In this document: positions 13,288 to 17,764 of the stretch, piece by piece
How positions within the stretch are numbered: the stretch's first letter is position 1
Layout: the number at the start of each line of letters is the position of its first letter
DNA from: Phycisphaerae bacterium
GTDB lineage: Bacteria > Planctomycetota > Phycisphaerae > Sedimentisphaerales > Anaerohalosphaeraceae
DNA length: 33,350 nucleotides
Assembly (NCBI GenBank): GCA_029858345.1
Contig: JAOUFG010000018.1
Location: 1-33,350 of the forward strand
Direction: 5' to 3'
Made by a program: the position numbers and the translations under genes
The notes under the pieces: generated by a model
The model's database searches: none
Seen by the model: only the letters and a program-made list of their open reading frames with translations
What the model was told of the DNA's origin: nothing

Positions 13288-14007
13288 TCAACTGAAGATG
13301 GCCGAGCCGATACGGAGCAGTGTGGCGCCTTCTTCGATGGCGATCTCAAAATCCTGGCTCATCCCCATGCTCAAATGTTTGAATTTGGACCCGGCGATCC
13401 GCTCGCCGTGGATTTCCTCGAAGAGTTCGCGAGCCCGAGCAAAACTGGCCCGCACGCGGTTCTTGTCCATGGTCAGGGGGGCCATGGTCATCAGGCCGGT
13501 CAGCCGGATGTTGGGCATGGTGTCAAACTGCTCCGCCAGATGAATCGCCGCTCCCACGGGGGCACCGTACTTCTGCGGTTCGCCGGAACAGTTGACCTGA
13601 AGCAGGACATTGGCGTGGATCCCCAGTTTGTGGGCCTGGGTGTTGATCTCTTCGGCCAGCCGGAGCGTATCGACCGAATGGATCGTTTCACATATCTGCA
13701 GCGTCTGCTTGACCTTATTCCGCTGCAGATGGCCGATCATGTGCCAGTGAACCTTGGACGGAACTGCTTCCTTGCCATGGTTTTCTTTGAGAAACGCACC
13801 CACTTCATCGGAAACCTGCTTGAGGTGCTGGACGCGGTTTTCGCCAAGATCGGCGAATCCATGTCGGAGGACTTCCTGAATCGCCGGCAGGGTCGCAGTT
13901 TTCGTAACGATAATGATTTTGACGTTTTTTCTGTTACGCCCGGCTCGGACACAGGCGTTGTTAACGTCGTCCTGAATCTTCTTCAATTTGTCTGTGATTA
14001 TGCTCAT
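13288..14007 (-). CDS. yggS: YggS-family pyridoxal-phosphate homeostasis protein
   Basis: A 239-residue PLP-binding protein of the YggS/PROSC family. It has an alanine-racemase-like barrel, no known catalysis, and a role in vitamin B6 balance. The PLP lysine is K36 in IIIVTKTATL. Other family segments are FADLGENRVQHLKQ, WHMIGHLQRNKVKQ, HSVDTLRLAEEIN, LLQVNCSGEPQKYGAP, LTGLMTM, FKHLSMGMSQDFEIAIEEGA and LLRIGSAIF. It starts 24 bases after the top6A stop, so it is probably in the same transcript. Start ATG 14007 lacks a clear ribosome binding site, which fits coupling to the gene before it. Confidence 0.95.
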   Translation of the reverse strand: MSIITDKLKKIQDDVNNACVRAGRNRKNVKIIIVTKTATLPAIQEVLRHGFADLGENRVQHLKQVSDEVGAFLKENHGKEAVPSKVHWHMIGHLQRNKVKQTLQICETIHSVDTLRLAEEINTQAHKLGIHANVLLQVNCSGEPQKYGAPVGAAIHLAEQFDTMPNIRLTGLMTMAPLTMDKNRVRASFARARELFEEIHGERIAGSKFKHLSMGMSQDFEIAIEEGATLLRIGSAIFS

Positions 14008-14031
14008 GGTTAAGTTGTGCAGGTTTATTGA

Positions 14032-15126
14032 TCAGGGTAAAAAATTCGTGGTATTTTTTAATTTTTTCGGCAGGTATTCATTCACGACAAAATCGAGACC
14101 GTGCTTGGCAAACGCCTGCTGTTCGACACGCTCACCCATTTTAAGCATCTGGTTGATGGCCACCTGCCAGGGTTTATGGTGCTTGACAAAGGGATCGTTT
14201 TTCAGGGCGTCTTTGGCGCGTTTGATATCCACGTCCTTAAGCGGGTGGGTCGGCAGTTTGTAGTCGATGATATCCTGGGGTGTAACACCGAGAAACGACG
14301 CTTTCGGTACACAGAAGTACTCATTCAGGTGGGCGGCGTTTCCGGAGCCGACCTTGAGTGTGCGGTAAATATTGAAGTAGCCGTAAGGATCGCCGTCCAC
14401 AAAGGCATAGACGGGGATTTTCAGCGAGTCGCTGAGCCGCCGGATGAAACGCCGACACGCGCGGGTGGGCACGCCGCCCATGCTGATGAGGATGCAGTCG
14501 GCTTTGTTCCAGTAGTCGCATTTTACCAGCCGCTGAAACGCGCCGGCGGTTTCGATGGCGAGGATAAATTTGGCTTTGCTTTGGAACTTGAGTTCCTCGA
14601 CTTCGACCGGGATGGAGTAGGCGCCGGAGCCGAACTTGGTGCAGTCGATTTTGAGTTTATGGCCGCTGTTGTCTTTGTCGATGACAAACAGACGCCCCGC
14701 AACGTCACCGCCTTTTTCTTCGGGGACGAATTTGAGCTGTTCACGGTTGACGCCAAACATGGCCTCGATGTCGTCCATTACGGTGTCCGACTCGGGCTGT
14801 TCTGTGAATCCGGCCTTGCCCCAGTTTTTTGAGATGTAGTAGGCCTCTCGTTTGGTGGCCATGTTGTCTTCGTCAATGAGCTGCTTGCTGAGAGCCATCA
14901 TTTTGAGGGTCTGGGCGAACGCCTTGACGGTGTTGACGGTCAGGGTGCGTTTTTTGGATTTTCCCAGCATCTCAAAATAGCCCTTTTTGGCGTGGTATTT
15001 CACGTTGGAAAGCGAGCGGATGGGGGCGCTCATGGTGGGTTTTCGATTTGCCAGAATCGCTTTATAGACCTCTTGGGCGTTCTCTTTGATCCGCTCTGAA
15101 GCCGAAATCTGTTTGGTCCTTGCCAT
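14032..15126 (-). CDS. top6A: DNA topoisomerase VI subunit A (Spo11/Top6A family)
   Basis: A 364-residue homologue of the DNA-cleaving subunit of type IIB topoisomerase. The catalytic tyrosine lies in KREAYYISKNW (Y96 or Y97) of the 5Y-CAP domain. The Toprim metal residues are E192 in FILAIETAGAFQRL and D244/D246 in FVDGDPYG. Domain order and length fit an intact A subunit. ATG 15126 is used with GGGAG upstream; an in-frame GTG at 15150 adds eight unlikely residues. Topoisomerase VI is mainly archaeal and plant, and patchy in bacteria. Subunit B, the ATPase normally encoded next to it, is not in this window. The downstream neighbours yggS and rnhB appear co-transcribed. Confidence 0.93.
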   Translation of the reverse strand: MARTKQISASERIKENAQEVYKAILANRKPTMSAPIRSLSNVKYHAKKGYFEMLGKSKKRTLTVNTVKAFAQTLKMMALSKQLIDEDNMATKREAYYISKNWGKAGFTEQPESDTVMDDIEAMFGVNREQLKFVPEEKGGDVAGRLFVIDKDNSGHKLKIDCTKFGSGAYSIPVEVEELKFQSKAKFILAIETAGAFQRLVKCDYWNKADCILISMGGVPTRACRRFIRRLSDSLKIPVYAFVDGDPYGYFNIYRTLKVGSGNAAHLNEYFCVPKASFLGVTPQDIIDYKLPTHPLKDVDIKRAKDALKNDPFVKHHKPWQVAINQMLKMGERVEQQAFAKHGLDFVVNEYLPKKLKNTTNFLP

Positions 15127-15178
15127 TGAAGTTGAAACTCCCTTTTTCACCGGTATTCTATTTTCTCAAATGTCGGTT

Positions 15179-15207
15179 ACTGTAAAAGAAAAAGATCCTA
15201 TATGCAA
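15179..15207 (-). promoter_or_regulatory. Promoter of top6A
   Basis: Minus strand TTGCAT (15207-15202), 17-base spacer, TACAGT (15184-15179). The predicted start is about 45 bases before ATG 15126. Confidence 0.55.
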
Positions 15208-15274
15208 GCATAAAGAGGTTTTCAGGCATTTTATCCTGTTTTTTAAAAAAGAACGGTTTTTTATAAAAACATCA

Positions 15275-15303
15275 TTGACAGAATCGGAATATGTCGATAT
15301 AGT
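15275..15303 (+). promoter_or_regulatory. Promoter of the small RNA
   Basis: Perfect TTGACA (15275-15280), 17-base spacer, TATAGT (15298-15303). It points to the plus strand, away from top6A and into a region with no plus-strand gene. The expected start is at 15307-15311. Confidence 0.8.
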
Positions 15304-15307
15304 TGTA

Positions 15308-15413
15308 GGTGATTATTAAGCCGATGAACACGGCTTAGACATAAACCTCGGCGAGGCTAAGCGAGAATCCGTTTCCCCCCCCAGACGGACTTGCATTCCT
15401 CGCCATTTTTTTT
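15308..15413 (+). ncRNA. Candidate small RNA with C8 apical loop
   Basis: About 105 bases between a consensus promoter and a U-tract. Hairpin 1 is TAAGCCG (15317-15323), loop ATGAACA, CGGCTTA (15331-15337). Hairpin 2 is long: GGCGAGG (15350-15356) pairs with CCTCGCC (15398-15404), GCGAG (15361-15365) with CTTGC (15390-15394), and TCCGTTT (15368-15374) with AGACGGA (15383-15389). The loop is exactly eight C (15375-15382). An A and eight T follow (15405-15413), a typical intrinsic terminator. No frame with a ribosome binding site lies inside. Flanking genes are both on the minus strand, so this is not a leader. C-rich loops in known bacterial sRNAs pair with G-rich ribosome binding sites; that role here is inference. 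It does not resemble SRP RNA, 6S RNA or tmRNA. Confidence 0.7.
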
Positions 15414-15476
15414 GCGTATTCAATGCCCGTTTTGAGGCCCATTTCAAGAGATTTCGATATGTAAAAAAGATGTTTA

Positions 15477-15884
15477 TTATCCCGTTATGGTCAAGTGGAT
15501 CTTTCTTGTCCGGGGGCCGTCGAACTCACAGAAATAAACGCCTTGCCATGTTCCTAATCTGGGTTTGCCGTTTTGGATACAGAGGATCTCGCTGGCTCCG
15601 ACCAGCGACGCTTTGACGTGGGCGTCGCTGTTGCCTTCGGCGTGCCGGTATCCTTTTCGCATTTGCGGCAATAATTCTTCTAATGTCAACAGGATGTCGT
15701 GGGTCACATCGGGGTCAGCGTTTTCGTTGATGGTGATTGCGGCGGTGGTGTGGGGGCAGAAAATAATGACGGTGCCCGTTTCTATGCCGCTTTTTGCGAT
15801 GGCCCCGGATACCTCGGACGTAATATCGATCATTTCATTGCGGCGGTTTGTTTTGACCGTGATGGTTTCTGTGTGGATTTTCAT
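15477..15884 (-). CDS. yjbQ: YjbQ / UPF0047 family protein
   Basis: A 135-residue protein of the YjbQ family. Its members form compact trimers; some have weak thiamin phosphate synthase activity, but the physiological role is unsettled. Motifs are clear: CPHTTAAITINENADPDV, RHAEGNSDAHVKASLVGASE and LGTWQGVYFCEFDGPR. The conserved histidines and acidic residues in these segments form the putative metal or substrate site. ATG 15884 begins MKIHTETITVKT, the family's usual first strand; the frame is open upstream but has no homologous sequence there. It is the last gene of the rsfS-argS-yjbQ group, 62 bases after argS. Confidence 0.93.
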   Translation of the reverse strand: MKIHTETITVKTNRRNEMIDITSEVSGAIAKSGIETGTVIIFCPHTTAAITINENADPDVTHDILLTLEELLPQMRKGYRHAEGNSDAHVKASLVGASEILCIQNGKPRLGTWQGVYFCEFDGPRTRKIHLTITG

Positions 15885-15946
15885 AAATCTTTTCCCGACC
15901 GAATTACAATTTCGTTTGACAGGATTAACAGGAGTTCCAGGATAAT

Positions 15947-17764
15947 TTACATTTGTTCGACAACCGTGATTCCCAGCAGTTCGCCCAGGCCGTGTTTGAT
16001 TGTTCGGGCTGTCAGGTCGCACAGGAGCAGGCGGACAGGCCGTTGTGCGGCGTCGGCCTTGAGGACTGGGCAGACATTATAAAACCGGCTGAACGCTTGT
16101 GCCAGGTCATACAGGTAGGCGGTCAGATAGTTCGGGCGGCATTCATTGGCAGCGGCGGCAATCGCCTGGTCGTAGCGGATGAGCATTTTCGCCAAGTCTG
16201 TTTCGGCCTCGTCGGTAAAGGCCAACGTTTTGACGCCGGACAGTTCGCTTTCGATGTCCACGTCCTTGCCGGCGGCTTTTCGCTCGATGGATTTGATGCG
16301 GGCGTAGGCGTACTGCATGTAGGGAGCGGTATTGCCCTCCATGGCCAGCATCTTGTCGAAGCTGAAAACGAAGTCGCTGTTGCGGTTGTTGGAGTAGTCG
16401 GCGTATTTGACCGCGCCGATCCCGACGGCCTTGGCGATCTCGGCTTTCTGGTCGACAGGCAGGTCGGGATTTTTTTCTTCAACGACGGATTGTGCTCGCT
16501 GGACGGCTTCTTCGAGCAGATCCTTGAGCTTGACCGTGCCGCCGGTGCGGGTCTTGAAGGGTTTGCCGTCGGTGCCGAGCATCGTGCCGAAGGTGACGTG
16601 TTCCAATTGTACACTTTTTTCAGGTTCGCTTCCGAAGCTGGAAGATTCGGCCACATTGCTCTCGGTCCAATCGGCCATTTTAGCAACCGCAAACAGCATC
16701 TGAAAGTGTTGCGCCTGCCGGGCATCGGTTACATAGATTATCTTATTCGCATGTAAATCCCGAATCCGAAACTGAAGGGCGGCTAAATCTGTTGTCGCAT
16801 ATAAAAAGGCACCATCGGACTTTTGAATGATAAACGGCAATGGGTCACCGTCCTTATTTTGAAACCCCGGGGGGAATACACACATCGCACCATCGGATTC
16901 AACCGCTAAACCTTTTTGTTTCAGTGTTTCTACGATATCCGGCAGTTTATCATTATAGAAGCTTTCTCCGCGAACATCTTTGTCTTCTAATGTTACAGAA
17001 AGTTTACTATAGATTTCAATATAATGCTTCTTTGACTCTTTTACGATACTCTCCCAGTATGTACGCCATGGTCCATCTCCTGAGTGTAAACCTGCAACAG
17101 CGTATCGAGCTGTATTTGCGAACTTTTCATCTTCATCAAATCTTTTTTTTGCTTTAATGTAAAAGCCTTCGAGTTCGCCCATTATTTCTTCTGTTGAGCT
17201 AAAGTTGCCTTCTTTGCTCATTTCCAACAGTCTCTCATCAAACAGGGCGCATAGCATGCCAAATTGTGTTCCCCAATCGCCGATGTGGTTTTGGCGGATG
17301 ACGGTGTGGCCCTCGAAGTCGTAGAGCCGGGCGATGCAGTCGCCTATGATGGTGCTGCGGAGGTGGCCGACGTGCATCTGCTTGGCGATGTTGGGGCCGG
17401 AATAATCCACGACAACGGTTTTCGGCGAGTCTGTTTTGTCAATGCCCAGCCGGTCGGGGTCGGTATTCATGGCCAGCAGCCGTTCGGCGAGAAGCTCCTC
17501 TTTGAGACGCAGGTTGATAAAGCCGGGACCGGCGATTTCCGGAGTTTCGCAGAGATCGTCAATCTTTAGTTCGCCCACAATCTTTTCAGCCAGTTGCCGC
17601 GGATTCATCTTCGCATGCTTGGCCGCGGCCATGACCCCGTTGGCCTGATAATCCCCGAATTTCGGTTCAGTGGACACACGTACCATCGCGGGCAAGTCCT
17701 GTCCTGTAACTTTCCGAATTGCCCCGGAAATCCTCTGCTCTAAAATATCTGTTAGTTTTTTCAT
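15947..17764 (-). CDS. argS: Arginyl-tRNA synthetase
   Basis: A class I aminoacyl-tRNA synthetase of 605 residues that charges tRNA-Arg. The HIGH-type signature is HVGH in NIAKQMHVGHLRST; VVVDYSGPN before it is characteristic of ArgS. Further on are FGTMLGTDGKPFKTRTGGTV (the KMSKS-equivalent region), GAVKYADYSNNRNSDFVFSF and APYMQYAYARIKS. A C-terminal DALR domain for the anticodon stem follows. ATG 17764 starts MKKLTDILEQ; a TTG five codons upstream is less likely. It follows rsfS by 18 bases. The middle (about 16900-17260) is far poorer in GC than either flank. This may be a recombination tract or just a lysine- and glutamate-rich region. Confidence 0.96.
   Translation of the reverse strand: MKKLTDILEQRISGAIRKVTGQDLPAMVRVSTEPKFGDYQANGVMAAAKHAKMNPRQLAEKIVGELKIDDLCETPEIAGPGFINLRLKEELLAERLLAMNTDPDRLGIDKTDSPKTVVVDYSGPNIAKQMHVGHLRSTIIGDCIARLYDFEGHTVIRQNHIGDWGTQFGMLCALFDERLLEMSKEGNFSSTEEIMGELEGFYIKAKKRFDEDEKFANTARYAVAGLHSGDGPWRTYWESIVKESKKHYIEIYSKLSVTLEDKDVRGESFYNDKLPDIVETLKQKGLAVESDGAMCVFPPGFQNKDGDPLPFIIQKSDGAFLYATTDLAALQFRIRDLHANKIIYVTDARQAQHFQMLFAVAKMADWTESNVAESSSFGSEPEKSVQLEHVTFGTMLGTDGKPFKTRTGGTVKLKDLLEEAVQRAQSVVEEKNPDLPVDQKAEIAKAVGIGAVKYADYSNNRNSDFVFSFDKMLAMEGNTAPYMQYAYARIKSIERKAAGKDVDIESELSGVKTLAFTDEAETDLAKMLIRYDQAIAAAANECRPNYLTAYLYDLAQAFSRFYNVCPVLKADAAQRPVRLLLCDLTARTIKHGLGELLGITVVEQM

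Follow-up and report, generated by a model that had tools for sequence, protein, structure and literature searches.

Between two minus-strand genes of a bacterium from the order Sedimentisphaerales lies a stretch of DNA (positions 15275–15413, plus strand, of the 33,350-nucleotide window analyzed here) that reads as a promoter, a 5′ hairpin, and a three-part terminator stem capped by a loop of eight cytosines (C8) and followed by eight thymines (T8). Does this stretch encode a free-standing small RNA (sRNA), and what might such an RNA do with a loop made of cytosine alone?

Results

Promoter, Fold, and Conservation of the RNA Locus

The putative sigma-70-type promoter (15275–15303, +) comprises the −35 box TTGACA (15275–15280) and the −10 box TATAGT (15298–15303), separated by a 17-base spacer; it agrees with the consensus at 11 of 12 positions, and no better sigma-70-like site lies in the 2.2 kb from 14000 to 16200. 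The start implied by this promoter gives a predicted RNA of ~105 nt (15308–15413, +). Its 5′ hairpin (15317–15337) pairs TAAGCCG (15317–15323) with CGGCTTA (15331–15337), and its terminator stem (15350–15404) is built from a basal helix (GGCGAGG, 15350–15356, with CCTCGCC, 15398–15404), a middle helix (GCGAG, 15361–15365, with CTTGC, 15390–15394), and an upper helix (TCCGTTT, 15368–15374, with AGACGGA, 15383–15389) closing on the C8 loop (15375–15382), with the T8 termination tract at 15406–15413. Computational folding of the transcript from 15308 returns the same hairpin and three-helix terminator as read from the letters, at −39.6 kcal/mol versus −21.0 ± 2.9 kcal/mol for shuffled sequences (z −6.4; 0 of 200 shuffles as stable). 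A preliminary description of this DNA had placed the promoter, 5′ hairpin, stems, C8, and T8 correctly to the base; its loop of “exactly eight C” is right for this genome, and other copies mostly carry seven.

A blastn run on 59 relatives found homologs in almost every member of the same family, and a covariance model was built from 33 copies. In the alignment of 100 matches, 95.7% of cells take part in pairs; double changes occur in 13 of 18 pairs, compared with 7.9 in shuffles (0 of 500 shuffles reach the observed level), and each of the 11 pairs in the middle and upper helices covaries by compensating substitutions. The C run enclosed by these helices, examined in 97 copies, consists of seven C in 75, eight in 13, and six in 8 (at least six in 96 of 97), and is absent from one tandem second copy. 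Covarying stems around an unchanging loop imply that the loop itself is under selection, and since a loop free of function would drift, we take the C-loop to be functional. An exposed hairpin loop with a conserved C run, a trait of trans-acting sRNAs with C-rich loops, is thus present.

The flanking elements are retained to differing degrees. TTGAC occurs upstream of 81% of the 97 copies versus 11% of shuffles, with TTGAC[AT]-17-TATAAT-like boxes seen at individual copies, and the T tract is nearly invariant across the 33-copy alignment. The 5′ hairpin persists as a structure while its sequence differs (5′ regions of the 97 copies, mean z −2.2). The element CCTCGGCGAGG (15346–15356), which consists of a single-stranded CCTC and the 5′ arm of the basal stem, does not differ among the 33 rows of the alignment and is nearly invariant more widely, as is the 3′ arm CCTCGCC; in family f5, CCAC replaces CCTC. 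An alternative CCTC/GAGG hairpin within CCTCGGCGAGG was considered and rejected as a conserved switch, because the CCAC of family f5 breaks its pairing. The recurrence of promoter, hairpin, stems, and C-loop in relatives places the locus, by comparison of sequences, far from what chance would be expected to produce. It was in part on such conservation that the preliminary description had let its proposal of an sRNA stand or fall, and the outcome favors the sRNA.

Distribution within Sedimentisphaerales

Of 161 genomes of the order, 129 match the covariance model, including 60 of the 66 high-quality ones; the RNA is widespread, usually as a single copy. In a phylum-wide sample of 392 genomes, matches fall within the order only, apart from three weak ones (L126–L128, 24–33 bits); two of these (L126 and L127) were aligned, both are without the C-loop, and these two were taken as chance. 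When 84,980 named species were scanned with a DNA pattern, 57 stretches came up, almost all of them from records titled as Phycisphaerae, Sedimentisphaerales, or unclassified planctomycete metagenome assemblies. Family f4 yields no covariance-model match, even in three single-contig genomes that are 98%–99% complete, and a plasmid collection contains no match to the C-loop RNA. It is virtually certain, on this evidence, that the locus is a real and conserved sRNA gene.

Two side observations concern individual matches. Contig CAMDDF010000099.1 (L040), titled Candidatus Kuenenia stuttgartiensis, carries the RNA but equals a genome of the order (G039), and its title is probably wrong. Family f7 shows weak, shorter second matches of 30–44 bits (e.g. 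G048:C81:65807–65874, G092:C94:2641–2706, and G086:C1:2689746), which are possibly paralogous RNAs with a common basal stem.

At the gathering threshold, Rfam matches nothing in the window except RNase P (bacterial class A, 2191–2576, 267 bits, overlapped by spurious reading frames). At E values up to 10, nothing overlaps the transcript at 15308–15413, and matches near it are only chance. The Rfam covariance model of 6C RNA, which we take to be RF01066, is not matched by the transcript. No published description of the C-loop RNA was found in the open-access literature searched. We class the C-loop RNA as a new family of a functional kind that is already known.

Neighborhood and Autonomy of the RNA Gene

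The divergent neighbor is a top6A homolog (TOP6A-Spo11 Toprim; 14032–15150, −; Pfam PF21180, 3.8e-60), and the convergent neighbor is yjbQ/UPF0047 (15477–15884, −; Pfam PF01894, 1.4e-43), so both lie on the opposite strand, as previously described. This top6A encodes a homolog of the topoisomerase VI A subunit and adjoins yggS in these bacteria. The usual setting, in several families, has yggS/top6A diverging on one side of the RNA and yjbQ converging on the other. In most loci, and in different families, the RNA has yjbQ on one side and top6A or yggS on the other. Such a setting would be expected if the element acted in cis, whether on yjbQ, as a convergent antisense regulator or a bidirectional terminator, or in the service of the top6A/yggS side. 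We consider this very improbable, given that there are copies with unrelated neighbors (L022, L180, and L181) and duplicate copies within one genome, that the RNA has its own promoter, that the minus strand is without a T tract after the stem, and that a terminator does not need a conserved C-loop. Nor is there a same-strand gene directly downstream, as for a cis-regulatory leader or attenuator, since yjbQ is convergent in most loci.

The second and relocated copies argue instead that the RNA gene is autonomous. One genome (G001) has two diverged copies at different loci (L022, 4677–4749, −, and L008); in the second copy the promoter is weaker and the upper stem shorter. The proposal of a free-standing sRNA unit is strongly supported by its maintenance over several families with compensatory stem changes, a TTGACA-type promoter, and a terminator.

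Further duplications occur in family f2, where two genomes contain a full second copy ~150 bases on with a C6 loop kept (L185, 2900–3260, −; L187, 2990–3330, +). In the first of these a further C6 stretch lies between the two copies; in a third f2 genome (L178, 2950–3290, +) a C6 hairpin lies in between, and the second terminator is degenerate and without a C-loop.

Candidate Target Sites

The preliminary description proposed that the C-loop pairs with G-rich ribosome binding sites and named dprA as an example. The dprA site (AAAGGAGG) is an ordinary Shine-Dalgarno sequence without a run of six G, and dprA is not retained as a target. This genome contains 22 instances of TGGGGGG-N4-10-ATG and 7 of the reversed pattern; most matches to the former were rejected as start sites, as they lie inside reading frames (TGG GGG codons). 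The clearest real start among them belongs to a PilX_N gene (PF14341, 467 aa), with GUUUGGGGGG immediately upstream of the start. The duplex predicted between its ribosome binding site and the C-loop together with the 3′ side of the upper stem comprises 13 contiguous base pairs (G-U included) at −23 kcal/mol.

PilX_N homologs were taken from 40 relatives and 36 further genomes. Their G-runs range from about 4 to 9; in many f1 genera, and also in family f7, the ribosome binding site contains at least 5 G in a row (e.g. TTTTCCGGGGGGGAAAAAAATG). Outside the genus of the window, at least 6 G are present at the ribosome binding site in 25 of 62 PilX_N genes, compared with 2 of 242 control genes (four families from the same genome group, measured identically; Fisher p 1e-17, a value inflated because PilX was chosen for the G6 in its own genome and the homologs are not phylogenetically independent). 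Runs of this length precede the start in only ~1% of 671 background genes of these genomes, and, when ranked by energy against 637 background starts, about half of the predicted PilX_N duplexes fall within the top 1%. The retention of the G-run at PilX_N ribosome binding sites across genera and two families lends comparative support to the proposed pairing, and in families f1 and f7 the evidence from sequence tips, if only slightly, toward counting PilX_N as a main target.

Within families, RNA-target co-variation beyond the C/G core was not seen, and matched duplexes are not distinguished by energy from swapped ones in f1 (p 0.47) or f7 (p 0.24); the overall value of 0.03 is confounded by ancestry. 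PilX_N G-runs also occur in genomes without a detected RNA, most of which are incomplete assemblies. PilX_N genes often stand as two or three tandem paralogs (L260/L274, L264/L275, L352–L354, and L375), and in some genomes every one of them has a G-rich ribosome binding site.

A few other starts in the window’s genome have G6 sites, among them those of a Flagellin_N gene and of a gene for a WbsX glycosyltransferase. The G6 ribosome binding site of the former (L302, 1501, G000:C43:12987; L396) is kept in one congener, and Flagellin_N is a possible second, genus-limited target. In a variant of the pairing mechanism, the RNA would regulate many genes through G-rich ribosome binding sites generally, PilX_N not being the main target. 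A short CCCCCC seed could indeed pair weakly at many sites, the genome has these few further G6 starts, and family f2 has the RNA but no PilX_N homolog was found there: in one f2 genome (G045) the RNA is even duplicated, and neither a PilX homolog nor any convincing gene with a G6 ribosome binding site was found. The rarity of such G-runs among background genes, and the presence of a flagellin-type gene in only 3 of 40 genomes, lead us to regard this broader role as doubtful.

Discussion

Our main reading, to which we assign a probability of roughly two-thirds, is that the locus encodes a free-standing sRNA of ~105 nt that acts without Hfq, its C-loop pairing with G-runs at ribosome binding sites, with PilX_N as the leading target. 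The RNA would be transcribed from its own promoter and would end in a terminator hairpin with an apical loop of 6–8 C. The exposed loop would then pair with a G-run at or beside the ribosome binding site of the target mRNA, the duplex continuing along the 3′ arm of the upper stem. Ribosome binding would be blocked, with repression as the presumed outcome. The leading candidate mRNA is that of the PilX_N-domain gene (type IV pilus or pseudopilin type). None of 59 genomes gave a match to Hfq, the protein that an Hfq-dependent trans-acting sRNA relies on, with 5 of 14 control genomes positive.

Base pairing by the loop does not account for one prominent feature, a basal stem that hardly varies. 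GGCGAGG/CCTCGCC and the CCTC before it are almost invariant, though the arms could drift by compensation, which is what an RNA acting mainly by protein binding might show, whether as a sponge or as a housekeeping particle; the C-loop and basal stem would then be recognition elements and the PilX_N G-runs unrelated. A wide distribution, usually in single copy, and the failure to find a target in family f2 fit such a role as well. It would, however, leave the strong G-run excess before PilX_N genes unexplained, and the transcript resembles neither 6S, SRP, tmRNA, nor any other Rfam family, even at E up to 10; in our judgement a homopolymeric C loop would also be an unusual protein site. We therefore consider a primarily protein-binding RNA unlikely, and a base-pairing regulator, as the comparative evidence suggests, the likely identity of the C-loop RNA.

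The LhrC family of Listeria comprises multicopy sRNAs whose terminator loop can join in target pairing; their seeds are mixed C/U, they belong to Firmicutes, and they match the C-loop RNA in neither sequence nor architecture. Helicobacter pylori is not known to encode Hfq, the protein that was not found in the genomes studied here. The loop on the terminator hairpin of its RepG, rich in C and U, pairs with a homopolymeric G-run in the leader of an mRNA (PMC8295292). The likeness lies in a terminator-hairpin loop pairing with a G-run, which is a prediction for the C-loop RNA; in contrast to the mixed loop of RepG and the tlpB G-repeat, which is phase-variable within a species, the C-loop RNA has a pure C loop kept over an order, and its G-run lies at the PilX_N ribosome binding site. 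No sequence relation between the two RNAs was found.

In the B11/6C system, a six-G tract in the eccB4 5′ UTR is repressed through either C-rich loop (PMC10470900), and the title of Mai et al. (2019), as cited in PMC8628891, describes 6C/B11 as chaperone-independent. The C-loop RNA likewise has loops with at least six C in nearly all copies, and its predicted target mRNAs carry G-runs. Unlike 6C, which is actinobacterial and has two C-loop stem-loops, the C-loop RNA usually has one C-loop, located on the terminator, together with a GGCGAGG basal stem that scarcely varies and a 5′ hairpin that is variable and has no C-rich loop; several C-loops are found only in the tandem arrays of family f2. 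By analogy, the C-loop RNA probably works like RepG and 6C/B11, though we do not claim membership in either, and trans-acting pairing of its C-loop with G-runs at ribosome binding sites is the best-supported mechanism.

In its widest form the proposal is of an order-wide, Hfq-independent switch for surface pili, in which the C-loop RNA controls PilX_N translation through a homopolymeric G-run. We offer this only tentatively; if it is true, the length of the PilX_N G-run could serve as an evolvable rheostat, like the tlpB G-repeat for RepG. The near-invariance of the basal stem is a separate question in its own right. Catalogued sRNAs are few across the Planctomycetes-Verrucomicrobia-Chlamydiae group as a whole (a 2022 survey counted 8 distinct annotated ones; PMC9029176). 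The C-loop RNA offers a nearly universal marker for an order known mainly from metagenomes. It also seems to be another example of a C-run loop that reads G-runs in Hfq-less bacteria, with PilX_N as one specific, testable target.
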